DNA of 16,680 bases from positions 1 through 16,680 of the forward strand of contig BBFS01000106.1 in NCBI GenBank assembly GCA_001313365.1. The letters run 5' to 3'. The DNA comes from Paenarthrobacter nitroguajacolicus JCM 14115. Its GTDB lineage: Bacteria > Actinomycetota > Actinomycetes > Actinomycetales > Micrococcaceae. This document shows positions 1-16,680 of the stretch, one piece after another (the stretch's first letter is position 1; every line of letters starts with the position of its first letter). Position numbers and translations under genes: made by a program. Below the pieces are notes generated by a model. The model saw only the letters and a program-made list of their open reading frames with translations, had not been told where the DNA came from and searched no databases.

Positions 1-1
1 C

Positions 2-187
2 GCCGCAGGGACCGGTCAGCCGGGTCCGGTGGCGCCGCGGGTCACGGAGGTCGTGGTGGAGCAGGGGGACACCATGGACGGAATCGCTGCGCAGTACGGC
101 GTGGACCTTGGAGCCCTCATCGCCACCAACGCAGATACGGTGCCCGATCCGGACAGGATCTACCTGGCAGGTGCTCCGGCTGCCTGA
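2..187 (+). CDS. LysM-domain protein, C-terminal end (5' truncated by window)
   Basis: The frame is open from the window edge and ends in TGA at 185-187. The visible 61 residues run from a Gly/Pro-rich linker (GQPGPVAPRV) into a LysM-like module: VVVEQGDTMDGIAAQYGV, then LGALIATNADTVPDPDRIYL. This has the LysM layout of a GDT turn, a helix with IA..YGV, then N..PDPDRIY. LysM modules bind peptidoglycan or chitin GlcNAc, so the protein is probably cell-wall associated. The start, any signal peptide and any catalytic domain lie outside the window. No G/C run of 6 or more occurs here and the frame is intact. The LysM assignment is fairly secure; the overall function is unknown. Confidence 0.7.
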   Translation, partial: AAGTGQPGPVAPRVTEVVVEQGDTMDGIAAQYGVDLGALIATNADTVPDPDRIYLAGAPAA

Positions 188-300
188 TTCGATCCGCCAA
201 AAACGACGACGGCGGTTGCCGGCGTCGCGAAAAATGGATCAGGAAATCTGCGTCTTCGCAAATTGTGTCGGCGCCGCTTTTCCGCGTTTTTTTCGCCGAT

Positions 301-329
301 TTGTAGCTTCCGAAAACGTCCGGTAGAGT
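301..329 (+). promoter_or_regulatory. Putative sigma70-type promoter of tRNA-Thr
   Basis: TTGTAG at 301-306 and TAGAGT at 324-329 are separated by 17 nt and lie 11 nt before the tRNA, with an A/T-rich stretch (TATTTACT) at the expected start site. The rest of 188-340 holds no gene I can support. Confidence 0.45.
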
Positions 330-340
330 ATTTACTCGTT

Positions 341-415
341 GCCCCCCCCTAGCTCAGTGGTAGAGCGCGTTCTTGGTAAGAACGAGGTCACCGGATCGAT
401 TCCGGTGGGGGGGCT
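341..415 (+). tRNA. tRNA-Thr(GGT)
   Basis: The cloverleaf is visible. The D stem is GCTC/GAGC with T8-A9 before it. The anticodon stem is CGTTC/GAACG around a TTGGTAA loop, so the anticodon GGT is at 375-377. The T stem is ACCGG/CCGGT with loop ATCGATT. The acceptor is a C run paired with a G run. CCA is not encoded. A normal 7-bp acceptor would be GCCCCCC paired with GGGGGGC, but the sequence shows 8 C (342-349) and 7 G (407-413). The arms are therefore too long, and the exact 5' end is uncertain by 1-2 nt. This is one of the clearest signs that G/C run lengths in this window are inflated. Confidence 0.92.
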
Positions 416-426
416 CTGGATGAGGG

Positions 427-467
427 CCTGTGTCAAGGCGGTTTTGACCGGCTTGACACAGGTTTTT
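427..467 (+). terminator. Intrinsic terminator after tRNA-Thr
   Basis: The perfect 11-bp stem CCTGTGTCAAG (427-437) / CTTGACACAGG (452-462) is followed by TTTTTCTC. The loop contains a further CGG/CCG pairing around TTTTGA. The hairpin separates the two tRNA genes, so tRNA-Met probably has its own promoter or is read through. Confidence 0.85.
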
Positions 468-476
468 CTCATTCGT

Positions 477-553
477 GGCGGTGTAGCTCAGTTGGTTAGA
501 GCGCACGACTCATAATCGTGAGGTCGGGAGATCGAGCCTCCCCCCCACCGCTA
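477..553 (+). tRNA. Elongator tRNA-Met(CAT)
   Basis: The 5' acceptor is GGCGGTG, followed by TA and D stem GCTC/GAGC. The anticodon stem is ACGAC-type with CAT at 511-513, followed by variable loop AGGTC. The T stem is GGGAG with loop ATCGAGC. The body matches actinobacterial elongator tRNA-Met rather than initiator tRNA. The 3' side should read CTCCC then CACCGCT, which is four consecutive C. The sequence has seven (540-546), so three extra C sit exactly at the T-stem/acceptor junction and would stop the molecule folding as written. CCA is not encoded. Confidence 0.9.
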
Positions 554-560
554 CAGAGCA

Positions 561-594
561 AGACCCCGCAGCATTCGCCTGCGGGGTCTTTTTT
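561..594 (+). terminator. Intrinsic terminator after tRNA-Met
   Basis: The perfect 11-bp stem AGACCCCGCAG (561-571) / CTGCGGGGTCT (579-589) is followed by six T. The C4 and G4 runs in this stem are of normal length and match each other, so not every four-base run in the window has been altered. Confidence 0.92.
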
Positions 595-618
595 CGTTCT
601 GTGGGACAGAATGGGTCC

Positions 619-1314
619 ATGAGCCGAATCGCAATCATTGGCGGCCACGGGAAAGTGGCCCTGCATCTGTCCCGCATTCTGAGTGGCGAAGGTCACGACG
701 TCACGTCTTTCATCCGAAATCCAGATCATGTGGCAGATGTCACGGAGACCGGCGCAACTGCTGAGGTGCTGGACGTGGAAAATTCGACGACGGCGGAACT
801 CGCCCAGGCGTTCAAGGGTCACGACGCCGTGGTCTGGTCGGCCGGGGGCCGGCGGAGGCAATCCTGCCAGGACCTACGCCGTTGATCGTGACGCAGCCAT
901 CCGCTCCATGGACGCGGCGGCCGAAGCCGGCGTCAAGCGATATGTGATGGTGTCCTACATCGGAGCCTCCAAGGATCATGGCGTCCCGGAAGACCACCCG
1001 TTCTTTGCCTATGCCGAGGCCAAAGCGGCGGCAGACGACTACCTGCGCAGCACTGCCCTCGACTGGACTGTCCTGGGCCCGGGAACTTTGACGGACGAAC
1101 CTGCCACCGGTCTGATCGAAACGGATCCAGCCAACCCCCCCGGCAATGGCACGGAGACTTCCAGGGCCAATGTTGCCTTGGTGGCAGCGGCCGTCCTGGA
1201 ACTCCCGGGGACCATCCGCCGGACCATCGCGTTCAAGGATGGTACCGACGATGTTGTAGACGCCCTCACGGAGACTGACTCAGCGCTGCCTGTTCCGCCG
1301 GGATATGTTGGTAG
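619..1314 (+). CDS. NAD(P)H-binding Rossmann protein (NmrA/SDR-atypical type), frameshifted, 3' end uncertain
   Basis: ATG at 619 opens MSRIAIIGGHGKVALHLSRI, a beta-alpha-beta NAD(P) site with a GGHGKVA glycine motif. It continues through FIRNPDHV, DAVVWSAG and RYVMVSYIGAS, and ends in a YAEAKAAADDYL segment with the YxxxK-like spacing of atypical short-chain dehydrogenases. Such proteins are small cytoplasmic oxidoreductases or redox-sensing NmrA relatives; the substrate is unknown. The frame breaks at 844-848, where GGGGG should be GGGG (SAGAGGGNPARTYAV reads across). A C7 at 1135-1141 gives NPPG where NPG is likelier. The second frame has no stop before the antiporter gene, so a further indel near 1280-1310 must be present. 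Stops in another frame at 1276-1278 or 1312-1314 are the likely ends. No good ribosome site is seen before 619; the leader after the upstream terminator is only about 20 nt. Confidence 0.75.
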
Positions 1315-1371
1315 GGAACTTTTTCGGCTTGGCCTGGGGAAGTGCCGTACAACCGCTGGGGAAGCAGGAAA

Positions 1372-2942
1372 ATGGATCAGTTGGCGCTCATTGTCGGGTT
1401 GCTGCTTGCAACGGTGGTGGCAGTGGGCCTGGGGGATAGGCTCCGGCTTCCCTACCTGTCCTGATGCTGCTTCTGGCCGTTGCCTCACCTTCATTCCGGG
1501 TTTTCCCGAGTTTGAGATCTCGCCTGAACTGATCCTGCCCATCTTCCTTCCGCCCTTGCTTTTCGCAACAGCGCAGAAGAGTTCCTGGGGCTGTTTTCCG
1601 TGTCCGCTGGCGGACATTGCTGCTGATGGCTGTTGCCTGGTGGTGGTGTCCACGGCAGTGGTGGCCGGCGCTGCGTGGCTCATGATTCCGGGCATCGGTA
1701 TCCCGGCTGCCATTGCCTTGGGTGCGATGGTGGCCCCGCCGGACCCCGTTGCCGTGGAGTCCGTAGCTGGCCGCGTGCACATGCCCCCGACGGCTCATTA
1801 CCGTCCTTCAGAGCGAAGGGCTCTTCAACGACGCCGCGGCAATCGTGATCTTCCAGGCAGCGGTGGCAGCAACAATGTCGGGCAAGGACGTGGGCCCGGA
1901 AGTCGTTCCACAGTTTGTCATCGGCGCTGCGCTGGCTGTTGTGATTGGCATCGCGATGGGATGGCTGACCAAGTTCATCACCAAGCTGGTCACCTCCATG
2001 GTTGCCCGCAGTGCCGTGACCTTGGTGGTTCCTTTTGCCGCCTACATCCTCGCGGAAGAGCTCCACGCCTCAGGTGTGGTGGCCGTCGTCGTTACCGCCT
2101 TGGAACTGCAGCGTCATACGCGGCCGCAGGACGCTGCAGAGCGGATCACGCGCACCGCCTTCTGGGACGTGGTGGAGCTGCTGGCCACAGGGCTGGCCTT
2201 TGGGCTGGTGGGGCTGGAGATCCGTCATGTCATCCGGGATGAAGGCACCGCCATTTTCGGGATGATCGGTATGGCCGTGGTGATCTGCATCCTGGTGTTC
2301 GTGGTGCGTTTCCTCTGGCTTGGCCTCCTCGCCCTCACCGCACGTAAACGCAGAAACCTGTTGCAACCAACGTCGCCCAAGGAAGTGCTGATCCTGACCT
2401 GGTGCGGCATGCGCGGCCTGGCCACACTGGCCCTCGCTTTGGCCCTCCCCATGACCTTGCCGGATGGCAGCGACTTCCCGGCCCGTCACGAGATCCTGGT
2501 GATTGCCTGCGCGGTGCTCCTGGCCACCTTGGTCCTCCCCCGGCCTGACCCTGCCGTGCTCATGCGCGTCCTGGATGCGACGGAGGACGGATCACATGAG
2601 CAGGACGCAGCAAAGGTCCTTGCCAAGCGGGCACAGTCGGCGGCGGTGGCTGCTTTGAAAGACCATGACCTCATGAAGGAACTTCCTGCCGAGAAGGTGA
2701 CCCTGGTCAAGGAAAAGATGCGCCGCCTCCATGCCGAGCTGTTGGATGGCACGCTGCAGAACGAATCCGTTGCGGAGAAGCGCAAGCGTGGACGGGAACT
2801 GTCCATCGCAGTGCAGACCATCGCCCTCGATGCCGCCCGCCAGGAAGTGGTGGCAGCCCGCAACGAGCCAGGCACCGACCCGGAAGTGGCTGACAGGGTC
2901 CTCCGGCAACTTGACCTGCGGACGATGTCAATGCCGGACTAG
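1372..2942 (+). CDS. Na+/H+ antiporter, CPA1 (NhaP/NHE-like) family, multiply frameshifted
   Basis: ATG at 1372 follows GAAGCAGGAAA. Reading across the indels gives a protein of about 520 residues that exchanges Na+ (or K+) for H+ across the membrane. It has many hydrophobic helices from LALIVGLLLATVVAVGLG onward. Family landmarks are APPDPVAVESVAGRV and SEGLFNDAAAIVIFQAAV (ion-site Asp and ND pair), TAFWDVVELLATGLAFGLVG, and GMRGLATLALALALP near the end of the membrane domain. A charged helical cytoplasmic tail of roughly 130 residues follows. Indels needed to join the frames: one C missing at 1455-1456, at 1483-1484 and at 1636-1637; one G extra at 1587-1590; one C extra at 1784-1788. One C extra at 2537-2541, compensated by a missing G at 2556, turns the conserved PGLTLP into PRPDPA. 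No terminator is visible before the convergent ROK gene. Confidence 0.87.
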
Positions 2943-2960
2943 GGCCGATGTTGGACCAGG

Positions 2961-4188
2961 TCAGCCAGCGGCAACCTGCTTTGACAGTGAAGCCGGGTAG
3001 AGATCCAGTGCATTCTCTTCTACGTAGTCCAACGCGTGGCGGATCGCGCCGAGGGACACAATGCCATCTCCCAGAGCTGATGTTGCCAGGCGTGGGGGGG
3101 AGTGAAGGTGAAGTCGGGCACCTGCTTTTCCATGGCTGGGATCAGGGTCTGGGCAGAGGCCGCGACGGCTCCGGCGATAACCACCAGCTCGGGATTGACC
3201 AACGTACTGATGGAGCCAATCACTCGGGCCATGCGGTGCGCCATACGGTCCATGACCTTGCGCGCTGCGTGGTCGCCTTCCTTTGCCGCCCTGAAAACCA
3301 TCTCTGCCGTCAGGCTTCGGGATCACCACCGCACAGTGCCCGCAGGTTGGTTTCCGCGCCGGAATCGAGGGCTTCCCGGCCCCATAGGGTTGCGTAGTGG
3401 GCAATGCCGTAGGTGTCGCCCACACCATCCACGTTGTCCAGGTATCCCAGCTCGCCAAAACCACCAACCTGCCCGTGGAGCAAGCGGCCGGATTCGAGGA
3501 TTCCGGACCCCCCCAATCGGTCGCCGGCGAGCATGACTACCAGGTTGTCGACTCCCTGTGCGCTGCCCTGCCAGCGTTCTGCGAGGGCTGCGAGGTTGGC
3601 GTCGTTTTCCAAAAGTACGTGCCAACCGTGGCGCTCGGATACGATCTTGCGGACATCGAACGATTTCCAGAATTCCTGTGCCCTGAGGACCTCGCCCGCA
3701 CGGCTGACCGGCGCGGCCACGCCAACAGACACGGCTAGGACAGAGTCGGCAAATACGCCCGCCTTCTCCAAGGCCTCTGCCGCTATGCTGTCCAGCACGT
3801 CTGCGCGTTCATTGGCCGGAACGTTGTAGGCACGGAAAGGCATCGTGACCTGGGACAAGGGCGTACCGGCCATGTCGGCCACAATCGCTGTGATCTTGTT
3901 GGCACCTATGTCAATGCCGATCACGCTGGCCGCACTGTCATCAAATGCGAAGCGCCGCGCAGGCCTGCCCTTGACGTAGTCACCGGCTCCTCGCTGGTTC
4001 TCCAATTCCTGAAGCCAGCCGAGCCGGACCAGTTCGTCGCAGATCGAAATGACGGTGGCCCGTGAGAGCCCCGTGGCGGCCATCAGCTCGGTGCCGGTGA
4101 CGATGCCGGCGCCGCGCATGGCTTTGAGCATGGCGCTGGCGTTGACCCTGCGTACCAGTTGCGTTGACGGTGCGGTCCCGGTCTGCAT
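2961..4188 (-). CDS. ROK-family transcriptional repressor of the alpha-glucoside cluster, frameshifted
   Basis: The start is taken as ATG at 4188 (MQTGTAPSTQ), with GGGAG a few bases upstream, rather than the in-frame ATG at 4272, which would place the coding sequence over the operators. Residues about 20-60 form a winged helix-turn-helix (ELMAATGLSRATVISICDEL). The ROK sugar-kinase-like fold follows, with GIDIGANKITAIVADMAGT, LLENDANLAALAE and GGFGELGYLDN. The zinc-binding CxCGxxGC motif of ROK kinases is absent, which fits a regulator rather than a glucokinase. Indels: G7 at 3508-3514 on the plus strand (LGGSG for LGSG), one base missing at 3313-3314 (PEALTAEMVF), and G7 at 3094-3100 where five bases restore TPPRLATSALGDGIV. 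The gene is divergent from the transporter operon and probably autoregulated. ROK repressors usually release DNA on binding a sugar or sugar phosphate. Confidence 0.87.
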
Positions 4189-4237
4189 TCGGCGCTCCCA
4201 CTTTTCAGCCGCCCTATCGGAGTGATAGAGCGTCTCT

Positions 4238-4260
4238 CTAAATTTAGTACATAAATTTAG
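4238..4260. promoter_or_regulatory. Tandem A/T-rich operator half-sites upstream of the ROK gene
   Basis: CTAAATTTAG (4238-4247, a perfect 10-bp palindrome) and ATAAATTTAG (4251-4260) are spaced by TAC. They lie about 50 nt upstream of the chosen ROK start. The same ten-base core recurs at 4329-4338 and 7620-7629, so this is the probable autoregulatory ROK site. Just beside it, CTATC (4214-4218) and GATAG (4224-4228) form a small inverted repeat. Confidence 0.65.
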
Positions 4261-4284
4261 ATGACGACGCATTTCGGCAAGCTC

Positions 4285-4350
4285 TTGACCCTGTGGCGGA
4301 CATCACTCACCATGGTTAGCGATAGGGCATAAATTTAGCTCCTATCTAAA
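4285..4350 (+). promoter_or_regulatory. Promoter/operator region of the sugar-binding protein operon
   Basis: ATAAATTTAG (4329-4338) lies exactly at the centre of a larger inverted repeat, GATAGG (4321-4326) / CCTATC (4341-4346), and CTAAA follows at 4346-4350. TTGACC at 4285-4290 is a possible -35 element. The -10 is unclear: CATGGT at 4311-4316 would give a long 20-nt spacer. The operator lies downstream of the putative promoter, as expected for repression. The operator core is well supported; the promoter call is weak. Confidence 0.55.
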
Positions 4351-4426
4351 CTTCGGGTGGCGATGCGCATGGTCCGCCGCACGATGGAGATGCGGCCACT
4401 GAGGTCCGCAAGACGAAAGGGCTACG

Positions 4427-5745
4427 GTGTCTGTGAAATCGACACGCAGGAAACGCTTTGCAGCAATGGGCCTGGGCTTGGCACTGCTCGCCGGCCTACT
4501 CTCCGGCTGCACCGGGGGGGACTCAGGTGATAGCGGGGGGGACTCGGGGGGGGATTCGGACAAGGAGACAATCCGCTTCACGTTCAGCAAACGGGAAGCC
4601 ATCGGCTTCATGACCAAACTTGTTGCCGACTACAACGCGTCCCAGGACGAAACCGAGGTGGTACTCGACACTTCCGGCGTCGACGTCGTGTCCGCGAGTT
4701 TCGTTCGCGGCAATCCGCCGGACATCGCCCTTGCCAACTACAACATGGAGACGTCCCGGTTCGTCCAGCGCGGAGCGTTGAGCGACTTGTCAGGGACGGA
4801 GGCGGCATCCCGCATCCGCGAGGACCTCCGGCCGCTCATGGAACAGTACGGTTCGTATCCCGGACGGACCAGTGCCCTGCCGTATTCGGTCATGGCGTCC
4901 TCCGTGATCTACAACAAGGAAATCTTCGCTGCCAACAACCTTGCCGTGCCCACCACCTGGAGCGAATTGATCGCGGCGTGCGAAACGCTGAAAGCTGCTG
5001 GAGTAACGCCGTTTTATGCCACCTGGAAGGATGACTGGACTATCGCCCAGGGGTGGTTTGACTACTCGGTAGGCGGGCAGGTGGACACCCTTGACTTCTT
5101 CAAGAAGCTTGAAGCTGAAGGCGTGGACGTCGGGCCGGAGTCTTCGGTGTCATTCCAAAAGGATTTTGACCAGCCCGTCCAGAAGATGTTGACGCTGGCA
5201 AAGAGCTACGTAAACAAGGACGCTGCAAGCCGGGCGTACGGCGACGGCAACCTGGCGTTCTCGCAGGGCAAGGCTGCTATGTATCTGCAAGGCCCGTGGG
5301 CCTTCAGCGAGATCGCCAAGACCGCCCCCCCCGACCTGAAGCTCGGAACCTTTCCGCTGCCGATGACTGAGGACCCCAAGGACTTGCGCGTCCGCGTCAA
5401 TGTGGACCTCGCGGTCTGGATTCCGGAGCGTCCAAGCACAAGGACGCTGCCCGGGGCTTCCTCGAGTACTTGTACCGGCCCGAGGTGATTGATGCCTACA
5501 ACAAATCGCAGCTGGGTTTCACGCCCACCAAGGAGACCGCAAACGTCCCGGACCCCCCCGGATTGAGGGAATGGTGGAGTACTACGACAACGGCAAGGTC
5601 TATCAGGTCCCTCGGTGCTCGTTCCCCCCCGCACCATCCCCCCCATCATGAACTACACGCAGGCAATCGTGTTCGGCGCACCCCCCCTGCATCCACCCTC
5701 CGCACCCTCGACGCAGATTGGGCGCGCCTGGCGTTCCGCCAGTAG
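4427..5745 (+). CDS. CUT1-family sugar ABC transporter substrate-binding lipoprotein, frameshifted
   Basis: GTG at 4427 follows GAAAGG. The N-terminus (VKSTRRKRF, then a hydrophobic stretch ending LLSGC) is a lipoprotein signal with Cys near residue 28, so the mature protein is membrane-anchored outside the cell. A Gly-Asp-Ser linker follows, then a MalE-like binding protein: PPDIALANYNME, YNKEIFAANNLAVPTTWSEL and KAAMYLQGPWAFSEIAK. The linker carries G7, G7 and G8 (4514-4520, 4535-4541, 4546-4553). Removing three G from each gives a simple GDS repeat. Other indels: C8 at 5325-5332 (APPD for APD), a missing G at 5428 (PEASKHKDAARGFLEYL), C7 at 5553-5559, a missing G at 5606-5607, C7 at 5624-5630 and 5638-5644 (LVPRTIPIMNYTQ once each run is shortened), and C7 at 5681-5687. 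The protein ends TLDADWARLAFRQ. Its ligand is probably an alpha-glucoside, judged only from the linked GH13 gene. Confidence 0.87.
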
Positions 5746-5769
5746 TGCAGACCATAGGGAGTCAGCTAC

Positions 5770-6699
5770 ATGTCCACCATCACCACCCCAACCACGTCCA
5801 AGCAAGGTCTTCAAAAGAACGGTCACCCGGCCTCACGCAGCAGGCGGCGCGTTGAACCGATCTTCTACCTTTTCCTGGTCCCCCAGCCTCATCCTGTTCA
5901 CGCTGGCCATCACGATTCCCGGCATCATGGGCATCTTCTTCAGTTTCACGAACTCCATTGGAATCGGTGACTGGGAGTTCATCGGCCTCACCAACTACAT
6001 CGCGATCTTCAGCGACCCGGCGATCCTGCAGAGTTACCTCTTCACTTTCGGGTTCTCCATCGTCACCGTGATCGCGGTCAACGTGGTCGCTTTCCTCCTT
6101 GCCGTCGGGCTCACGTCGCGCATCCGGATGAAGTCGGCGCTCCGGACCATCTTTGTCATCCCCATGGTGGTTTCCGGCATCATCATCGCCTACGTCTTCA
6201 ACTTCCTGTTTTCGAACTCCCTGCCGTCGCTTGGAGCTGCGACAGGGATTCCTTGGCTGGAAAGCAGTCTGCTCGCCAACCGGACCTGGCATGGATTGCG
6301 ATCGTTATGGTTACGGCCTGGCAGGCCGTTCCCGGCGCATTGCTCATCTATATTGCAGGCCTTGTGGCCGTCCCTGGAGATGTCTATGAGGCCGCCGACA
6401 TCGACGGCGCGAGCAAATTCCAGCAGCTTCTGAAGATCACGCTTCCGCTGGTGGCCGGTTACGTGGTCATCAACATCATTCTCGGGTTCAAGGGCTTCCT
6501 CAACGCCTACGACATCATCGTCGGGCTGACGAACGGAGGCCCGGGAACCTCCACCAGGAGCATCGCGATGACTGTCATTTCCGGCTTCAACGGCGGCGAT
6601 TACGCCTATCAGATGGCCAACGCAACGATCTTCTTCGTGGTCGCCATCCTCATCTCTCTCGTACAGCTCTCGCTGACTCGCGGACGGAATGCACTGTAA
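5770..6699 (+). CDS. CUT1 sugar ABC transporter permease (MalF type), frameshifted
   Basis: ATG at 5770 has AGGGAG upstream and lies 24 nt after the binding-protein stop. The N-terminus is cytoplasmic and basic (SRSRRRVEPIFYLFLVP). Several membrane helices follow (LILFTLAITIPGIMGIFFSF, AVNVVAFLLAVGLTSRI, TIFVIPMVVSGIIIAYVFNF). The coupling loop is EAADIDGASKFQQLLKITLPL, matching the EAA motif of ABC importers. The length, about 310 residues, is normal. One extra C at 5880-5884 (VPSLILFT is the correct reading) and one missing C at 6280-6281 (LLANPDLAWIAIVM) break the frame into three pieces. The stop TAA overlaps the ATG of the next permease by one base (TAATG), so the pair is translationally coupled. 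No ATPase gene lies in the operon. Confidence 0.88.
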
Positions 6700-7573
6700 T
6701 GACCAACCAACTGATGACCAAAAAATCCAGCTCCAAAGTTGAACGCGTCAACTGGCCGGCAACCACCGTCCTCGTTCTTTGTGCAGTGACTGTGCTTCTT
6801 CCCCCTGTATGTCACGGTCTCCATGGCTTTCAAGACCCAGGGGGGGCAGGCGGTGGATGGCAATGCCTTCTCCTTCCCCCGCACCCTTTAGCCTCGAGGG
6901 CTTCGTCCAGGCCTGGACCCTGACGAACTTCCCGGTGGGAGCCGCGATGTCGCTGCTGGTGACAGCGGGGGGGACCGTCTTTGCCACGATCATCCTGGCC
7001 GCCTTCGCCTCCTACGCGATCGTGCGCAACTGGGAACGGCGGCTTTTCAGGTACTCGTTCTTCTATCTTCTGGGCGCAATGTTCATTCCCTTCCCCCCCG
7101 TGGTTGCGCTGCCGCAGATCCAGCTCACGGGCCGGCTCGGCCTGGACAACCCGTTCGGCGTGATCCTGCTGGCCACCATGTTCCAACTGAGCTTCAGCGT
7201 CCTGCTCTTCACCGCGTTCCTCCGTTCGATCCCGATGGAACTGGAAGAGAGCGCCAGGATAGATGGCGCAACCACGTGGCAGACCTTCTGGAAACTGATT
7301 TTCCCGTTGCTGGCGCCAATGAGTGCCACCGTGGGGGGGATCTTCGCGTTCCTCTATGCATGGAACGACTTCATGATGCCGTCGCTGATTATTTCCGATC
7401 CGGCAATGCAGACGCTGCCCGTGCGGCAGAACCTTTTCCAAACGCAGTTCAGCAACAACTATCACGTGTCCTTCGCGTCCTACCTGATGGCGATGGCACC
7501 GGCCATTGTTGCCTACCTCTTTACGCAACGCTGGGTCATGGCCGGCGTGACACAAGGTGCCGTAAAGGGCTAG
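6699..7573 (+). CDS. CUT1 sugar ABC transporter permease (MalG type), frameshifted at the 5' end
   Basis: The gene starts at the ATG in TAATG at 6699. After the N-terminal MTNQLMTKKSSSKVERVNW comes a membrane helix (LVLCAVTVLLPLYVTVSMAF). The EAA coupling loop is ELEESARIDGATTWQTFWKL, followed by a helix with FAFLYAWNDF and the C-terminus QRWVMAGVTQGAVKG, typical of MalG-type partners. Indels: C5 at 6801-6805 and C5 at 6876-6880 should each be four. G7 at 6840-6846 (KTQGQAVDG expected), G7 at 6967-6973 (TAGTVFA expected), C7 at 7093-7099 (PFPVVALPQ expected) and G7 at 7333-7339 (VGIFAF expected) each look three bases too long, giving an extra Gly or Pro without changing frame. With its partner it forms the transmembrane pore of the importer. 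Confidence 0.88.
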
Positions 7574-7579
7574 CCGTTG

Positions 7580-9411
<1,832 letters not shown>

Positions 9412-9433
9412 GGGCCGCGGTGATACTGAAAGC

Positions 9434-10396
9434 ATGACTGTTGCGAACGGGCGGGGACGCCTCCTTTACGGCTGCATGGGACTCGGCGGCTCTTGGGACG
9501 GCACGTCCTACGGGGCTTCGGAGATCGATCAGGCAGCTGCGGTGATTGAGCTGCGCAAGGGATTGGCATTGAGGTTTTCGACCATGCGGATATCTATCGC
9601 AGCGGAAAGTCCGAGGCGGTCTTTGGTGAAGTCCTCGCCCGTTCGCAGGGTCTGCGCGACAAGATCCAGCTTCAGACCAAATGCGGGATCAGGCTGGGGG
9701 GGAGCGCGGACTGGAGACGCATTACGACCTCAGCCGTGACGCCATCCTTGAACGGTCCATGAAAGCCTGAAGCGGCTCCAAACGGACTACGTGGACGTGC
9801 TGCTCCTGCACCGGCCCGATCCGTTGATGGACCCGCGCGAGGTGGCGGACGCCGTCGGACAGCTCATGGCGGAAGGCAAGGTGCGGCAGTTGGGTGTGTC
9901 CAACATGTCCGGCGCTCAGATCGCCTTCCTGCAGGACAGGTTGGAGGTGCCCATCGTGGCGAACCAGCTGGAAATGAGCCTGCTTCGCCGTGGCTGGCTG
10001 GAGAGTACCGTGTTGGTCAACCATGCGGAGAGTCTGGAATACAGCTTTCCGCACGGGACTCTTGAGCACTGCATGGCCAAGGGAATTGAACTGCAGGCAT
10101 ACGGGTCGTTGGCCCAGGGGCGCTATACAGGTGCGCCGTCCGCGGAGCATTCGCCGGCCGAGTCGGCCACCGCGGACATGCTCGAAAAATTGGCGGGGGG
10201 GAGAAAAGCACCACGCCGGAGTCAGTACTGCTGGGTTGGCTCATGAAGCACCCGGCCAGGATCTCGCCGGTAGTGGGAACCACCAACGCTGCCCGGATCG
10301 CTGCCTGCGCCGATGCCGCCTCCGTGGCTGCCGGCATGACCCCGTGCCGAGTGGTACGGACTGTGGGTGGCAGCGCGGGGAAACAACATCCCCTAA
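9434..10396 (+). CDS. Aldo/keto reductase (YdhF-like), frameshifted
   Basis: ATG at 9434 (MTVANGRGRLLYGCMGLGG) lies 22 nt after the glucosidase stop with no clear ribosome site. The product is an NADPH-dependent (beta/alpha)8-barrel reductase of unknown substrate. The catalytic tetrad is visible: Asp and Tyr in DHADIYRSGKSEAVFG, Lys in QTKCG and His in LLLHRPDPL. The NADPH-binding end is PVVGTTNAARI. Indels: a missing G at 9550 (VIEAAQGIGIEVFDH), G7 at 9696-9702 where five fit (RLGERGLETHYDL), a missing G at 9754-9755 (VHESLKRLQTDYVDV), G7 at 10195-10201 where five fit (LAGEKSTTPESVLLGW), and C4 at 10340-10343 where three fit (MTRAEWYGLWVAARGNNIP, then TAA at 10394-10396). It could be co-transcribed with the glucosidase, but its role in sugar use is only inferred from position. 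Confidence 0.87.
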
Positions 10397-10407
10397 CCCC
10401 GGTTTTA

Positions 10408-10475
10408 ACCCAACTGAGTCGCAGTTGTGCGCGTTATGACGACTCAAAACGCGCTTAACTGCGACTCAGTTGGGT
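10408..10475. repeat. Long inverted repeat between convergent genes (possible bidirectional terminator / intergenic element)
   Basis: Two 28-nt arms, 10408-10435 and 10448-10475, are complementary except at two positions and are separated by a 12-nt loop. The outer 19 bp (ACCCAACTGAGTCGCAGTT) pair perfectly, and the inner AACGCGC/GCGCGTT pairing closes the loop. It lies between the stop of the plus-strand reductase (10396) and the stop of the minus-strand dioxygenase (10493), where a terminator for both would be expected. It lacks a proper T run on either side, so it may instead be a dispersed REP-like element. Confidence 0.8.
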
Positions 10476-10492
10476 CACAACAGCAACACATA

Positions 10493-11431
10493 CTACGAGG
10501 CGCGGCTGATCGGAGCGACCACGGAGTACGTGCTCGAGTCACCCTGGATGGCCTGGCTGGGTTTGCCATCGATGCTGACGGGAATGTCGCCCGCAATGGT
10601 CACGCGGTTGAGCTTGCGGGGGGGCTGGCCGTCATAGTTGTCCGGTGCGTAGTGCTGCGTGATGCGGTTATCGAACAGGACCACCTGGTTGGGCTCCCAG
10701 TTCACCCGGACCACGTTCTCCGGACGCGTCACGTAGGCCTGCAGCAGGCGGATGATGTCCTTGGATTCGGTGTTGGACAGGCCCACGATCCTGAGCCGCT
10801 GCGCGAAGCCCCCCCAATAAACAATCCGCGCTCGCCGGTCAAAGGGTGGACCCGCACCACAGGGTGGGCGGTTTCGAACTTCAGCCGGGTGAATTCCTTG
10901 CGTCGTTCTTCCGCGTTGGAGTGCTCAAGGTTCTTGGGCACCGAGTAGTCGTAGTCGTTGGTGTGGATGGCCCACAGGGTGTCCGCGAAGTTCCGCAACT
11001 CCTCCGGAAGGTCCTGGTATGCCCCGGCCGAGGACGCGATCAGGGTCTCGCCACCGTAGGCGGGGGGGAGATCGATGCTGCGCAGTGTGGAGGCCTGCGG
11101 CGGGTTGACCACGAAAGTGACGTCCGTGTGCCAATTGTTGGCCGAGCCATTCTCGCTGTCCACAGGCAGGACATTCTCTTCGCCGTCCACCGAAGCGACC
11201 GTCGGGTGCGCCTTGGTGAGCGGGCCGAAGTGGCTGGCGAACTTCACCTGGCTTCGTCCGTGAGAATGTTGGCCTCGCGGAAAACAAGTGCCTTGTGCTC
11301 GTTCAGGCTGCCCGGATCTGCGCAACAGTTTCTTCACGCAGGTCGCCGCTGATGTCCAGGCCACGGATTTCGGCGCCGATACGGGAGCCGAGTTTGGCGA
11401 ACTCGAGTTTGGTTTCGGTAATGACGGTCAT
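10493..11431 (-). CDS. tauD: TauD/TfdA-family 2-oxoglutarate-dependent dioxygenase (taurine/sulfonate type), frameshifted
   Basis: ATG at 11431 ([20 protein letters not shown]) follows AAGGAACACGTC. TauD-type enzymes use Fe(II), O2 and 2-oxoglutarate to hydroxylate a sulfonate such as taurine, which then releases sulfite. The iron ligands are the H-x-D of NNWHTDVTF (about residues 102 and 104) and the distal His of [14 protein letters not shown]. The 2-oxoglutarate-binding Arg is in [15 protein letters not shown]. Indels, in plus-strand positions: one base missing at 11306-11307 ([12 protein letters not shown]), one missing at 11250-11251 ([12 protein letters not shown]), G7 at 11062-11068 (LPPAYGG, LPAYGG likelier), C7 at 10809-10815 where five fit ([13 protein letters not shown]), and G7 at 10618-10624 (GQPPRKL for GQPRKL). 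It is the last gene of the sulfonate ABC operon. TauD is the closest named member, but other sulfonates or herbicide-type substrates cannot be excluded. Confidence 0.85.
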
Positions 11432-11496
11432 GACGTGTTCCTTACTTGTTGAGATGGATCTTGTTGTGATGGTTGCGGCAGGTGCCGCGGGGTGGG

Positions 11497-12436
11497 TCAG
11501 GAAGCGGCAGAGCCAACAGCGGTCCGCCATCGGGAGAAGTGCTTTTCAAGGGCAACCAGCAGGAAGTTCACGCCGAGCCCCCCCAGCAAGGACACTGTGA
11601 GGATGCCCGCGTACATATCCGGGATGAGGAAGCTGCTCTGCGCATTCACGATCAGGTAACCCAGCCCAGCCTTGGCTCCCACCATTTCAGCGGCGATCAG
11701 CACCAGGATGGAGGCGGTGCCGGCCATGCGAATGCCCGTGAAGATCGTTGGTACAGCCGACGGGAGAATGACCTTCTGGAAGAGCCTGAAGCTGTTGAGC
11801 CCCAAGGAGCGGGCGGCCCTGATCAGGAGCGGGTCCACGGTCTTCACACCGGCAATGGTGTTGAGGAGAACCGGGAAGAAGGCCGCGTACGCCACGATGC
11901 TGATCTTGGATTCTTCTCCAATGCCCAGCAGCAGCGTGAACACGGGTAGAAGGGCCAGCGCGGCTGTGTTGCGAAAAAGCTCCAACAACGGGTTCAGCAC
12001 CGAGTTCAGGCGTCCGTACCAAGCGATGAGCAAGCCCAGCGAGACACCCGCCACCAATGCTGCGCCGAAGCCGGCCACGGACCGGGTGAGGCTGGCCGCG
12101 ATATGGCCTTGGATGGTGCCTGCTTCGAAGAGCTTGCCCCCCCAGGCCAGCAGCACTTCGTGCAGCGGCGGGAGGAACACCCGGGTGGACGGGCTCGCCA
12201 AATAGGTAGGTCCAAGCTCCCACAGTGCCAGGAAAGCCAGGACCGCTGCGGACTTCCACAGACCCGACCCCCACAGCTCCGGCGACGCGTCGCGCTATGC
12301 CGGGTGCCGGCGTCGTACGCTCTTCAGTTGCCACCTGAGTAACGGAACGTTCGACGGCGGCACTGGGGGGGTCAGCCGCGGTACTCGCCTTGGGCGCTGT
12401 GGCGGCAGTTTCGGCTTGAGTGAGTGTAGTGGTCAT
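11497..12436 (-). CDS. Sulfonate/taurine-type ABC transporter permease (SsuC/TauC family), frameshifted
   Basis: ATG at 12436 (MTTTLTQAETAATAPKAST) follows AAAGGAG with 9 nt spacing and overlaps the expected TGA of the ATPase gene by one base. A Thr/Ala-rich cytoplasmic N-terminus leads into membrane helices (AAVLAFLALWELGPTYL, GFGAALVAGVSLGLLIAW, ALALLPVFTLLLGIG). The coupling segment is IRAARSLGLNSFRLFQKVILP, and the C-terminus is LEKHFSRW, as in SsuC/TauC permeases. Indels: C5 at 12268-12272 where four fit (GAVGSGLWKSAAVLAF), C7 at 12137-12143 (AWGGKLF, AWGKLF likelier), G7 at 12365-12371 (ADPPSAA, ADPSAA likelier) and C7 at 11578-11584 (LLGGLGV, LLGLGV likelier). It stops at 11497-11499, 65 nt before the dioxygenase start. 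Confidence 0.87.
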
Positions 12437-13328
12437 CAGGCGGCGCTCCTTTCGGTGATGGTTGCCGGTTCGTCCGGTGCGCTGCGTCCGGCAGGATCTT
12501 GCGGTGGCCGGCGTCCTGGGCACGGCGGACTTCGTCGTGCAGAAGAGTCCACACCTGGTGGCGGTGCTCCACAAAGGCGTGGTTGGAACGAATGTCCTCG
12601 TCGCCGTCGCGGTCCGGGATGTTGATGTCCAAGATTTCCTTGAGCCGGCCGGGGGGGCGGGCGCTCAGCACAGCAACGCGCTCGCCGAGGTACACAGCTT
12701 CATCGATGCCGTGCGTGATGAAGACGATGGTCTTGCCGGTGGCCTTCCAGATCCGGAGGAGCTCATCCTGAAGCTGCTCGCGGGTCTGGGCGTCCAAGGC
12801 TGCGAACGGCTCGTCCATCAGCAGCACATCCGGCTCGTAGGCCAGGCTTCGGGCGATGGCAACACGCTGTTTCATACCGCCGGAGAGTTCGTGAGGGTAG
12901 CGGTCCTCGAAGCCCGCGAGCCCCACCAGGGCCAGGTATTCGCTGGCTTTCGCGGCGCGTTCGCGGCGATTCAGCTTCTTGCCATCCGGACCCACACCTT
13001 CGAGCCCGATCGAGACGTTGGCCGACGCCGTCCGCCACGGGAACAACGCATACTGCTGGAACACCACGGCGCGGTCCTTGCCCGGTCCGGTGACGGCTTT
13101 GCCATCCACCAGGACTTCACCGGAAGTCGGGGGGGTGGAGAGCCCGGCCAGGAGGTCCAGGAGCGTGGTCTTGCCCGAGCCGCTGGGCCCTACCAAGGTG
13201 AGGAACTCGCCGTCGCGGACGTCCAGGCTCAAAGAATCAATGGCGGTGAGGCGGGTGGCGCTTGTGGTTTTGGTGGCCCGGACCGTGAATTCCTTGGTGA
13301 CGTTCCGGAGGCTGATTTTGGCGGTCAT
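12436..13328 (-). CDS. Sulfonate/taurine-type ABC transporter ATP-binding protein (SsuB/TauB family), frameshifted near the 3' end
   Basis: ATG at 13328 (MTAKISLRNVTKEF) lies 2 nt after the binding-protein stop. All nucleotide-binding motifs are present: Walker A GPSGSGKTT (residues 47-55), Q-loop VVFQQYALFPW, signature LSGGMKQR (148-155), Walker B VLLMDEPFAALD and switch His in FITHGIDEAV. This subunit powers uptake at the inner face of the membrane. G7 at 13129-13135 gives STPPTSGEV where STPTSGEV is usual, and G7 at 12651-12657 gives ARPPGRLK for ARPGRLK. One missing base at 12480 shifts the tail. Restoring it gives PDEPATITERSAA and a TGA at 12436-12438 that overlaps the permease ATG, a normal coupled junction. 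Without it the frame runs on to about 12372 over the permease start. Confidence 0.9.
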
Positions 13329-13330
13329 GG

Positions 13331-14362
13331 CTATCCCTTCGCTGCAGCGAGCTCGTTGAACTCGTTCGTGTAGTACTTGGACGGCGTGAGCTTGTCCTTG
13401 ACGATTCCCGACGAGTTCAGCCAGGCCTCCCAGCGGGTGAAGTCCTCATCCTTGACCACACCGTTTTCCGGAACGCCGGGGGGGCTCTTCCAGAACTTCA
13501 GGTTGGCTGTGCTCTCATTGCGGCCACGGCTCTCGATGATCTTGGTGTAGCGGGCAATGACCTCATCGCGGGGCGTTTCAGTGGCCCACTTGAGTGCTTT
13601 CGCGATCGCCGTGGTGAAGGTCCGGGTAGTGGTGGGGGTTCTTCTCGATGAAGTCGTTGCGGAGCACAATCTGGCCGCCGGCGAACGTGCCGAACAGCTC
13701 GTAGTCGTTGAACAGGGACCTCAACCCACCGGCCTCGATGGCCCGGTCCTGCAGGACGCCGCCCAAGGTTCCCACGTCCACTTGTCCGCGGCGGATGGCT
13801 TCTTCCGTGTCATTCGGCGCGAGGGGTACCAGTTGGACTTGCTTGATCTCGTCCTGGCTGAGCCCGTTCTTGGTCAGGTACGTGTTGATGACGGCCTCAT
13901 GGTGGGCGCCGAGTGTGTTGACGGCGATCTTCTTGCCGATCAGGTCCCGCGGTTCCTTGATGGCGCTGTCAGCTTTCACGTAGTAGCCGCTGAAGTTCTT
14001 CTCGTCGGCGCCGTAGTAGTTGATGACGCCTTTCACGGGCGCCCCGGCTTCGATGAGTTTGGTGACGGCGCCGGTGAACGCGCCACCAAAATCGGTCTGG
14101 TTTGTGGCCGCTGACTGGATGTCCTGGGGGGGGCCGCTGGTGGTGTTTCCCACCCACTTCAGTTTGACGTCACCCAGGTATCCAAGGTCTTCCGCCAATT
14201 CCGGGAAGGTGACCTGGTTGGCCCAGCCTGGTACCGGAGTTCCGTGATTTCGTTGCCGGCTTGAGCGCCTTGCCCGGCTTCGGCTGCACCGCCGCAGCCG
14301 GACACCGTCAGCGCTAGTACGACGGCGGCCGCGACGCTCAGCAGGGGCAGATGCAGTTTCAT
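13331..14362 (-). CDS. Sulfonate/taurine-type ABC substrate-binding lipoprotein (SsuA/TauA family), frameshifted
   Basis: ATG at 14362 opens MKLHLPLLSVAAAVVLAL, followed by TVSGC, a lipoprotein signal with Cys near residue 23. The body is an SsuA/NMT1-like binding fold: GWANQVTFPELAEDLGYL, SGPQDIQSAATNQTDFGGAF, DLIGKKIAVNTLGAHHE and GQVDVGTLGGVLQDRAIE. Proteins of this kind capture sulfonates such as taurine outside the membrane. Indels, in plus-strand positions: one base missing at 14227-14228 (LRYQGWANQ), G8 at 14126-14133 (SGPPQD for SGPQD), G5 at 13634-13638 where four fit (KNPTTTRTFTTAIAKAL), and G7 at 13478-13484 (KSPPGVP for KSPGVP). The stop at 13331-13333 lies 2 nt before the ATPase start. 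This is the first gene of a four-gene minus-strand operon. Confidence 0.87.
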
Positions 14363-14747
14363 GGGAGCTACTTTCGATGGTTTGTGATCTGTTGGGTGGC
14401 CGGCTTAGGCAAGTGCTTGGGAGCCTTGCAACGGCTTGGGAACGATGTAAACCCATCCCGACGTCGACTGGGAAGTGCGGCGGTAACTCCCGGAAACCCT
14501 GCGAAACAGCCCGAAATGGAACGAAATCCGGGGGGGCCATTCCCGGCAACCCTGGGACACAAAGACGCCGTGTTGAGCCCTGTGAACAACAGCGACAGGT
14601 GGGCCGGATATGACTGGCGCGTCACGCCGTCGGGCGTTCATACTGCGGGACCCCACAGTCATATGGGGGGGTTTAGTTCGTATTGATCCTCACAACCGGG
14701 CGGAATTCTTCGCTGTGCGGGGGGTGCCGGACGGATACGGTAGATAC
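14363..14747. promoter_or_regulatory. Divergent intergenic control region (385 nt) with palindromic operator candidate
   Basis: No gene is convincing here; the short frames across it show no family features. It should carry promoters for the minus-strand sulfonate operon and the plus-strand lyase. An 18-nt imperfect palindrome, ACTGCGGGACCCCACAGT (14642-14659, 7 of 9 positions symmetric), resembles a dimeric repressor site. A second inverted repeat, ATATGACTG (14608-14616) / CAGTCATAT (14656-14664), overlaps it. The octamer GCTTGGGA occurs twice (14415-14422 and 14434-14441) near the sulfonate operon. TACGGT (14736-14741) lies 6 nt before the lyase ATG, the spacing of an actinobacterial leaderless -10. 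G7 runs at 14530-14536 and 14665-14671 and a G6 at 14719-14724 are probably inflated. Confidence 0.45.
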
Positions 14748-15613
14748 ATGACGTCTAGCATCGCCGCCGAATCAGTTCGGCCTACCCGCAATATTCCCGC
14801 CGACATTGCCCGTTCATGGCTCCTTGTGAATGCCATGAAGACGGAGCTTTTTGACGAATCCGCGGGTTCACGGGCAGACGCATCATCCTTGACATCGAAG
14901 ACGCCGTTGATCCTTCCCAGAAGGACATTGCCCGCGAGAACGTGGTCAACTGGCTGACCTCCGGCGGCAAGGCGTGGGTCCGCATCAATGACGCCACCAG
15001 CCCGTTCTGGGCCGACGACCTTGCTGGATTGCGTGGCACCCCGGGCCTGCTCGGCGTCATGCTCGCCAAGACCGAGTCCGCTGACCAGGTCACAGAGTCC
15101 TATCACCGCATGGACGGCAAGACTCCCGTAGTCGCACTGGTTGAGTCCGCCCTCGGCATCGAGGAAGCAAACCACATCGCCCGTGCACAGGGTGCTTTCC
15201 GGCTTGCCTTCGGTTCCGGCGACTTCCGCCGCGACACCGGCATGGCGGCCACCCCCCGGAGGCCATGGCCTACCCGCGCGCAAAGCTCGTCGTCGCCAGC
15301 CGCGTTGGTAACCTGCCGGGCCCCATCGACGGCCCCCACCGTCGGCACCAACCACCCCATCCTGCGTGAGCAGACGGGCATCACCGTGACCATGGGCATG
15401 ACCGGCAAGCTCTGCCTGGCCATCGACCAGACCACCGTGATCAACGAGGTCATCAGCCCCACGCCTTCGGACGTCGCCTGGGCCACGGACTTCATGAACG
15501 ACTTCGAGGCCAACGGCCGCGTCATCCGCGACGGTTCCGACCTCCCGCGCCTGGGCCGTGCTGAGAAGATCATGAAGCTCGCAGTGGCCTTCGGAGTCCA
15601 GCCTTCCCTGTAA
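14748..15613 (+). CDS. HpcH/HpaI aldolase family CoA ester lyase (CitE-like), frameshifted
   Basis: ATG at 14748 (MTSSIAAESVRPTRNIP) is chosen because the N-terminal segment IARSWLLVNAMKTELFDESA resembles CitE-like lyases. The fold is a TIM barrel that cleaves or forms C-C bonds of malyl-CoA- or citramalyl-CoA-type esters using Mg2+. Metal-site segments are AIILDIEDAVDPSQ, VALVESALGIEEA and AFGSGDFRRDTG. Indels: one C missing at 14881 (ADAIILDIED); C6 at 15252-15257 where four fit; C5 at 15333-15337 where four fit. The last two sum to +3, so the frame recovers, but about 27 residues between them are out of frame. The true reading there is ATPEAMAYPRAKLVVASRVG. It ends LAVAFGVQPSL and TAA, 2 nt before the next gene. 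The exact CoA substrate cannot be told from sequence. Confidence 0.85.
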
Positions 15614-15615
15614 GC

Positions 15616-16542
15616 ATGCTTGTCCACGGGGGTCGCTTGGGACACTTCGTCCCCTTCGCTGCGAATGTTCACGCCGGACGCGGAGTTCAGTGACGTTGCG
15701 TTGGTCCAGGGTTCAGCCCTGGGCCTTCGCGTAATCCCCGGATTGTGGTGCCTTGGCCACACCAAAGTCCACGGCCCCGGGGGGGATCGGACGCATGTCC
15801 CGTGCCGCAGCGGTTCTCCAGCCGAGCGTGGGAAGCAATGCGGAGCCTGCTTCGCGCGGGACGACTCCCGGCTGATGCACGACTTCCACCGCGGCACGTC
15901 CGTTCCCACCGGCCTCCGTGCCTACCTGATGCAACCGCACTGGCTCTACGTGGCGACGTTCGGGAACGGTGCCAGCAAAGTGGGTACGGCCTCTGCTCCG
16001 CGCAAGTGGAACAGGCTCGCCGAACAGGGCGCTGTCCACGCTTCCTATGTGGCGCACACCGAGGACGGCCGCGTTGTTCGTGTTCTCGAGGATATGGTGA
16101 CGCGCGAGCTTGGCCTCGTCCAGCAAGTCCGCTCCGCTTCCAAGGCTGCGGGCCTCGTGGAGCCGCGTGCCGGCGTCGAGCTTTTGACGCTGAACCGTCA
16201 GCACGCTGGCCGGGTGCGCGAGCTTCTAGGTGGTTTGGCGATGACCGGCTATTCCGTTGTGGAGGAAGAGTGGGAGCGGCCCGCCTTTGCGGAGCGGCTC
16301 TGTGTTCCTGGCGCCGAAGGGGTCCGTCGCCACGCCTACCCGGCAACGTTCGACGGCGGCGGGCACGGTTTGCGGATCCGCTCCCTATCGGGGGGGCGAT
16401 CGCCTTGGCGGGCCTCCCGGATGCTTCGGGTAACGAGGTAGAGGGCAGTTTTGTGGCGGACCTGGGTGCTTTGAAGGGCCGCAAGATCGAGTTCGGCCCG
16501 CACACCACGGAAATCCCGGCGCTGCAGGACTCCTTGTTCTAA
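15616..16542 (+). CDS. DUF2797 family protein, frameshifted at both ends
   Basis: The product resembles the DUF2797 family, whose function is not known to me. The region PGLWCLGHTKV, GDRTHVPC and KQCGACFARDDSR supplies Cys and His residues, including a CxxC pair, consistent with a zinc site. It is followed by HWLYVATFGNGASKVGTA, RKWNRLAEQGAVHASYVAHT and LEDMVTRELGL. ATG at 15616, 2 nt after the lyase stop, gives MLVHGVAWDTSS if G5 at 15628-15632 is read as four. Otherwise a start near 15620 must be used. G7 at 15779-15785 gives GPGGDRTH for GPGDRTH. G7 at 16390-16396 shifts the frame; five G restore SLSGAIALAGLPDASGNEV and the end EIPALQDSLF at 16540-16542. Tight spacing suggests co-transcription with the lyase, with no evident functional link. 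Confidence 0.8.
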
Positions 16543-16544
16543 TG

Positions 16545-16680
16545 CGCTGTGAGGCCCGCACCGCCCCCCCCTTTTTCGTTGTGAGGCCCGCTTTGCGGGG
16601 TATTTCGGGGTTTTGGGGTGCAGAGTAGGCCTCTCAACGCCCCCCCCTCTTTGCGTTGTGAGGCCCGCTTTGCGGGGGGG
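16545..16680. repeat. GC-rich intergenic repeats with short hairpins, cut by window end
   Basis: The 24-nt sequence beginning CGTTGTGAGGCCCGC and ending TTTGCGGGG occurs at 16577-16600 and again at 16654-16677, 77 nt apart, each preceded by a C8 run and a T-rich stretch. A shortened copy, GCTGTGAGGCCCGC, lies at 16546-16559, and an inverted relative, GTAGGCCTCTCAACGC, lies at 16626-16641. Each full copy can form the hairpin CCCGC-TTT-GCGGG. It directly follows the DUF2797 stop, so it may act as its terminator, or may be the start of a larger repeat array outside the window. Confidence 0.65.

Follow-up and report, generated by a model that had tools for sequence, protein, structure and literature searches.

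The long G and C runs of the window, as we call the whole 16,680-base contig analysed here, are almost certainly errors of the deposited consensus and not of the DNA. G/C runs with a true length of four or more have been lengthened, mostly to seven bases. The initial annotation of this contig had ascribed the pattern to an artefact of base calling or of the consensus that affects G/C runs specifically, and that explanation fits every test that we ran. The defect is wider than had been described, as it also includes lengthenings from four to five bases and single-base deletions.

A recount returned the 41 G/C runs of six or more bases reported earlier, at the same places and with the same division into exactly two sixes, 33 sevens (previously given as "about 33") and six eights; one of the sevens closes the contig, and seven is hence a minimum length there. 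Among 206 genomes of the genus, exact G/C sevens number 0 to 77 per genome, with 12 in the 4.6 Mb of the nearest one, compared with 33 in 16.7 kb here; the Poisson tail for 33 sevens is about 1e-82 at the rate of the nearest genome and 2e-56 at the highest rate. Runs of seven or more reach 23.4 per 10 kb in the window versus 1.66 in the runner-up among 106 sequences (105 loci and the window), and in two IMG/VR scans that listed at least 239 loci, a selected sample, the densest of those listed above 4 kb reaches 12.4 per 10 kb for runs of 7-8. Chance as the source of the long runs is ruled out by the census and by the 206-genome and 106-sequence comparisons. The Arthrobacter Hiyo genomes, considered as a related case, are unsupported as such: the comparison consists of one Hiyo8 stretch (L089), which has no run of seven or more. 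According to the portion of the Hiyo report available (PMC4712596), Hiyo1 and Hiyo6 were sequenced with GS FLX+ and Ion PGM, and Hiyo4 and Hiyo8 with PacBio RS II.

The window is colinear with Arthrobacter sp. M2012083 at the 92% identity level. We aligned each G/C run of six or more to the relative L011, a check that the initial annotation had proposed, and found the comparable runs of the relative to be shorter. Among comparable G/C runs of at least four bases, 35 of 57 are longer in the window than in Arthrobacter sp. M2012083 and none is shorter. Its 48 fours correspond to 21 unchanged fours, eight fives, one six and 18 sevens, its seven fives to one unchanged five, five sevens and one eight, and both of its sixes are longer in the window. 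A/T runs are as normal as had been stated, with none of 27 differing from L011 and 0 to 2 differing per relative across ten relatives, such that one base class is hit and the other spared (35/57 versus 0/27; Fisher 8e-9). G/C runs of two or three bases are nearly unaltered, and lengthening is similar by base (G, 20/30; C, 15/27), with both strands alike. When relatives were compared with each other in 17 pairs, which have sequences in common and therefore do not give independent counts, 0 of 541 G/C runs and 6 of 237 A/T runs differed. The constancy of G/C runs among relatives, the contrast with A/T runs within the window, and the equal treatment of G and C all argue for an artefact. The ten relatives give the same picture and the 17 control pairs show no such lengthening, ruling out alignment error.

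Identical flanking bases define the strict comparison, for which 27 of the 41 runs of six or more qualify against L011; the remaining 14 either align there with a run that is shorter or interrupted, or lack a counterpart. The expectation of four or five bases holds for 19 fours and 6 fives among the strict 27 and fails for two sixes, both in tRNA-Thr. Ten of the 13 examples put forward as exactly +3 are strict changes from four to seven, while those at 6967, 7093 and 13129 additionally carry a substitution; five of the six put forward as frame-shifting changes from five to seven are strict, the exception being 5553. Overlooked until now were eight lengthenings from four to five, as well as single-base deletions, which number 22 and remove a G or C in 18 cases. 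Gap events relative to L011 fall into two classes: 48 of 86 lie within window G/C runs of at least four, every one an insertion, and a second class consists of single-base deletions in shorter runs. Flanking base, local G+C (p 0.19) and position (p 0.85) gave no context rule separating lengthened from kept fours, in a comparison of small numbers. The individual sites, with their counterparts in L011, are as follows.

342..349 (+), C run of 8, tRNA-Thr acceptor 5' side; 6 in L011
407..413 (+), G run of 7, tRNA-Thr acceptor 3' side; 6 in L011
540..546 (+), C run of 7, tRNA-Met; 4 in L011
844..848 (+), G run of 5, frameshift; 4 in L011
1135..1141 (+), C run of 7; 4 in L011
2537..2541 (+), C run of 5, frameshift; 4 in L011
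3094..3100 (+), G run of 7; CGGGGG in L011, different flank
3508..3514 (+), C run of 7; 4 in L011
4514..4520 (+), G run of 7, lipoprotein linker; no counterpart in L011
4535..4541 (+), G run of 7, lipoprotein linker; GGGG in L011, not strict, adjoining a 24-base difference
4546..4553 (+), G run of 8, lipoprotein linker; GGGGGAA in L011
5325..5332 (+), C run of 8; CTCCC in L011
5553..5559 (+), C run of 7, frameshift; CCCTC in L011
5624..5630 (+), C run of 7; 4 in L011
5638..5644 (+), C run of 7; 4 in L011
5681..5687 (+), C run of 7, frameshift; 5 in L011
6801..6805 (+), C run of 5, frameshift; 4 in L011, 7 implied by P0001
6840..6846 (+), G run of 7; 4 in L011, 7 likewise implied by P0001
6876..6880 (+), C run of 5, frameshift; 4 in L011, 4 implied by P0001
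6967..6973 (+), G run of 7; GGGA in L011, no extra Gly in P0001
7093..7099 (+), C run of 7; CCCT in L011, extra Pro likewise in P0001
7333..7339 (+), G run of 7; 4 in L011, extra Gly likewise in P0001
7827..7831 (+), G run of 5, frameshift; 4 in L011
8096..8102 (+), G run of 7; 4 in L011
9003..9009 (+), C run of 7; 4 in L011
9696..9702 (+), G run of 7, frameshift; 5 in L011
10195..10201 (+), G run of 7, frameshift; 5 in L011
10618..10624 (+), G run of 7; 4 in L011
10809..10815 (+), C run of 7, frameshift; 5 in L011
11062..11068 (+), G run of 7; 4 in L011
11578..11584 (+), C run of 7; 4 in L011
12137..12143 (+), C run of 7; 4 in L011
12268..12272 (+), C run of 5, frameshift; 4 in L011
12365..12371 (+), G run of 7; TGGG in L011
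12651..12657 (+), G run of 7, adding a Pro on the - strand; 4 in L011, no Pro in P0241-P0247
13129..13135 (+), G run of 7, adding a Pro on the - strand; interrupted run in L011, no Pro in P0241-P0247
13478..13484 (+), G run of 7; 4 in L011
13634..13638 (+), G run of 5, frameshift; 4 in L011
14126..14133 (+), G run of 8; 5 in L011
14530..14536 (+), G run of 7; 4 in L011
14665..14671 (+), G run of 7, intergenic; 4 in L011
14719..14724 (+), G run of 6, frameshift; 4 in L011
15252..15257 (+), C run of 6; CCCCT in L011, outside the strict comparison
15628..15632 (+), G run of 5; 4 in L011
15779..15785 (+), G run of 7; 4 in L011
16390..16396 (+), G run of 7, frameshift; 5 in L011
16564..16571 (+), C run of 8, intergenic repeat; no counterpart in L011
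16640..16647 (+), C run of 8, intergenic repeat; not comparable with L011
16674..16680 (+), G run of 7, last bases of the contig, cut by its end

The frames of the protein genes are broken while selection on them is intact. Frameshifting indels number 42 and are spread over all 14 protein genes scored, whereas the same genes have a dN/dS of 0.056 overall (0.009-0.151 per gene), with 780 of 957 substitutions at third codon positions, indicating strong purifying selection. The indels thus ignore reading frame despite selection on the genes, a combination that again argues for an artefact. The same genes are open in relatives, and the control pair L012/L011 shows two frameshifting indels over the 13 genes covered. 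Lengthened runs occur in at least 13 of the 14 genes, in the two tRNAs and in intergenic DNA; permeases, a dioxygenase, an amylase, tRNAs and the spaces between genes carry long tracts alike. Damage to the tRNAs had been offered as an argument against a true expansion process. Both do hold lengthened runs, but taken alone the argument carries little weight, since tRNA-Thr and tRNA-Met are still called by ARAGORN in the window, both fold about as stably as those of the relative, and the tRNA-Thr runs are naturally six bases long.

P0001 is the same permease as that of the window from another contig (4,190 bases); it has one substitution in 286 residues relative to the relative and four extra Pro/Gly residues, located at G/C runs. 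Its implied run lengths, judged from the protein only, differ from those of the window at three of six sites, a disagreement compatible with an artefact. Neither extra proline of the window is present in the ABC ATPase relatives P0241-P0247.

A true G/C-specific expansion process, operating in the lineage itself and lengthening runs of at least four by two or three bases, to about seven genome-wide, would agree with the base-specific, length-specific and strand-symmetric pattern and with the similar change in the second contig. We regard it as scarcely credible: it would leave every scored gene frameshifted under strong purifying selection, it has no sign in the 206 genomes or the 17 relative pairs, its lengths skip six, unlike stepwise slippage, and the two near-identical permease copies (window and P0001) imply different run lengths. 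Frameshifting in all 14 genes scored would also be expected of a decaying stretch, in which real pseudogenes accumulate run expansions, but this is very improbable, as it is already contradicted by the substitution pattern, the indels cluster in G/C runs, and the genes are open in relatives. Phase-variable homopolymer tracts (contingency loci) share with the window G or C tracts of at least seven bases (here 7-8), and the length differences between the two permease copies could be read in the same way. Such loci, however, involve few genes only, whereas 35 of 57 G/C runs of at least four are altered here whatever the host element, and relatives carry 4-6 bases at comparable sites and no long tract; we give phase variation practically no chance.

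The likeliest route to such errors, at somewhat less than even probability, would be noisy single-molecule reads in which the decoding of G/C run lengths was miscalibrated. The reads would come from a nanopore-like instrument and have modest depth. The base caller or polisher would apply a rule of its own to G/C run lengths, one that was overfitted or poorly calibrated, and would thereby report seven where four or five bases had been observed. Ordinary residual errors of this type of read would account for the single-base deletions, most of which remove a G or C. A toy decoding model with smooth tables reproduced G/C-specific lengthening and spared runs of two or three, but took fours to five or six and not seven, and left the scarcity of sixes unaccounted for. 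The available parts of the literature on long-read homopolymer errors and polishing (MarginPolish/HELEN; PMC7483855, PMC8011154) describe the same frame-breaking homopolymer indels, tools with base-specific run-length models, and polishers that can add insertions. According to the Homopolish paper, the insertions of one isolate rose from 1055 to 4614 under HELEN, and base-caller overfitting to particular run lengths is suspected (PMC8011154). The window differs from the cases in these portions, as it shows almost only lengthening, in G/C only, mostly to exactly seven and with A/T intact; no published description of a G/C jump from four to seven was found in the available text of the literature searched, which is not proof of its absence. 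Two further sources, as far as their available sections go, count against the proposed route: R10.4 consensus runs shorter than 11 are mostly correct (PMC9262707), and residual run errors of the best pipelines are biased to A/T (PMC11232133).

Another artefact, whether from flow-based sequencing (454, Ion Torrent), from k-mer polishing with a tool such as ntEdit, or from a short-read assembler that miscounts G/C runs, could account for the runs with a probability that we likewise place a little short of one half. Flow-sequencing miscalls are length errors confined to runs, as in the window, but they mostly add or drop a single base and occur with all four bases rather than G/C alone, whereas here A/T runs are intact and the jumps are of two or three bases. 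The contig breaks off within a short intergenic repeat, its last bases being a G run; an end in such a repeat would suit short-read assembly and counts against the long-read route. In the part of PMC11232133 available, ntEdit is reported with more G and C run errors.

As biology the long runs have no importance, and as a case of data quality their importance is slight. Lengthening by exactly three bases leaves the frame open, and the altered proteins therefore escape ordinary frameshift checks. The protein database already contains the altered product of the window (P0121, 100% identical to the window translation) and the altered P0001 with its four spurious Pro/Gly residues, and such +3 products could be mistaken for real insertions. 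A surplus of G/C sevens with almost no sixes provides a simple screen for contigs of this kind.

A scripted count of every homopolymer in the window found 41 G or C runs of at least six bases, two of six, 33 of seven (one of these truncated by the contig end) and six of eight, exactly as the initial annotation had tallied them. The same count gave 48 G/C runs of four and 14 of five, while A and T runs reach at most seven bases and are ordinary in appearance. In each of 206 congeneric genomes, between 0 and 77 G or C runs have a length of exactly seven, and the Poisson tail for 33 of them in 16.7 kb is approximately 1e-82 at the rate of the nearest genome and 2e-56 at the highest rate. When the window was tabulated with 105 other loci, its density of runs of at least seven bases (23.4 per 10 kb) was far above that of all others, the next value being 1.66.

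We compared the window run by run with the colinear locus of a relative, Arthrobacter sp. M2012083, under the strict requirement that both bases flanking a run be identical in the two sequences; 14 of the 41 long runs fall outside this judgement because a flanking base differs or the counterpart is absent. The relative's 48 G/C runs of four appear in the window as four (21), five (8), six (1) or seven (18) bases, its seven runs of five as five (1), seven (5) or eight (1), and its two runs of six as seven and eight. Accordingly, 35 of 57 G/C runs are longer in the window and none is shorter, with G (20 of 30 changed) and C (15 of 27) affected alike, whereas none of 27 A/T runs of four to six bases is changed. 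Nine more relatives show the same pattern against the window, with 15 to 28 G/C runs changed per relative and between 0 and 2 A/T runs. Between relatives, over 17 pairs that share sequences and are thus non-independent, 541 G/C runs show no change and six of 237 A/T runs do. Three G runs, of uncertain natural length, lie inside a repeated Gly-Asp-Ser linker (4514-4560) behind the lipobox of the sugar-binding lipoprotein; the linker is shorter in the relatives.

The nearest of the genomes compared (G001, Arthrobacter sp. M2012083) is colinear with window bases 1-16639 at the 92% identity level. The contig closes in an intergenic repeat of TGTGAGGCCCGCTTTGCGGGG-like units (16577-16680), to which 9 of 22 matches in G001 fall; the stretch is therefore a dispersed repeat of the genome. 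The short intergenic stretch at 10407-10475, which separates the aldo/keto reductase gene from the TauD-like one, has four other matches in G001 (three places, one on both strands) and one on the Arthrobacter replicon NZ_AP024648, and is likely another dispersed, partly palindromic repeat.

The M2012083 locus carries fourteen complete protein genes over this stretch (encoding an NAD(P)-binding protein, a sodium/hydrogen exchanger, a ROK protein, a sugar-binding protein, two sugar permeases, an alpha-amylase family enzyme, an aldo/keto reductase, a TauD-like dioxygenase, an ABC permease, an ABC ATPase, an NMT1-like binding protein, an HpcH/HpaI protein and a DUF2797 protein). In the window, every one of the fourteen is hit by one or more frameshifting indels, with a total of 42. 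In a control comparison of the M2012083 locus with that of another relative, 13 scored genes contain two, both in the NMT1-like gene. Overall dN/dS for the window genes is nevertheless 0.056, with individual genes ranging from 0.009 to 0.151, the ABC permease being scored over only part of its open frame. Because selection has kept the amino acids despite dozens of frameshifts, the frameshifts are absent from cells. The cause preferred in the initial annotation is supported, and we are highly confident that the long G/C runs are a sequencing or consensus artefact and no real feature of the organism.

That annotation also cited tRNA damage. Both tRNA genes do carry lengthened runs relative to the relative's (six to eight and six to seven in tRNA-Thr, four to seven in tRNA-Met). 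However, ARAGORN, which was also run on the relative's genes, still calls both, and the predicted folding energies are near the relative's (-36.5 versus -37.1 and -28.5 versus -28.3 kcal/mol); the damage is therefore suggestive only and was overweighted.

Single-base deletions are a second class of error. Alignment with the M2012083 locus gave 22 (18 of G or C, four of A or T; 19 inside genes), scattered over 1272-16664 and many in GG, GGG or CCC. One of them falls in the 3' end, where the alignment is poor, and a few could reflect true divergence or a shifted alignment.

The error depends on base and length, is blind to strand and reading frame, and leaves most affected runs at seven, which suits a program that applies its own run-length rule to each base. 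We consider this particular route possible, at somewhat under even odds. Such a run-length model in Shasta is said to seem calibration-sensitive and hence is off by default (PMC7483855), HELEN is reported to have increased the insertions of one isolate from 1055 to 4614, and base callers are suspected of overfitting particular run lengths (both from the Homopolish paper, PMC8011154). Against a modern nanopore origin, R10.4 consensus is reported to be correct for most runs under 11 (PMC9262707), and another benchmark describes residual errors in the best pipelines as A/T-biased, with ntEdit the tool giving more G and C errors (PMC11232133). Termination of the contig in an intergenic repeat likewise counts against the route, since long-read assembly normally spans such repeats. 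A toy simulation of the decoding lengthened only G/C runs of at least four, yet to five or six, so a smooth table leaves the missing sixes unexplained. The jump from four to seven with few sixes is the unusual aspect, and no description of it was found in the sections of the literature searched.

Database protein P0121 is a 100% match to the window translation and is encoded on a contig of exactly 16,680 bases; the window is therefore very likely a complete public contig, with its altered runs already in the public record. Both extra prolines of the window's ABC ATPase are missing from seven related proteins (P0241 to P0247), one of which, P0242 (from a 4.95 Mb contig), otherwise has two residue differences ahead of the point where the window loses its frame. 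Searching with the second sugar permease brought up P0001 (290 residues, from a 4,190-base contig), a second public protein with spurious Pro or Gly at G/C runs. Compared with the 286-residue protein of the relative, P0001 has one substitution, also present in the window, and four extra Pro or Gly residues, all at G/C runs. Run lengths back-read from P0001 match the window at 6840, 7093 and 7333 and differ at 6801 (seven versus five) and 6876 (four versus five); at 6967, where the window run is seven, P0001 is without an extra residue. Frame-closing changes in its gene are invisible because only the protein is seen. We infer that P0001 comes from the same sample as the window, and it suggests that further contigs are affected.
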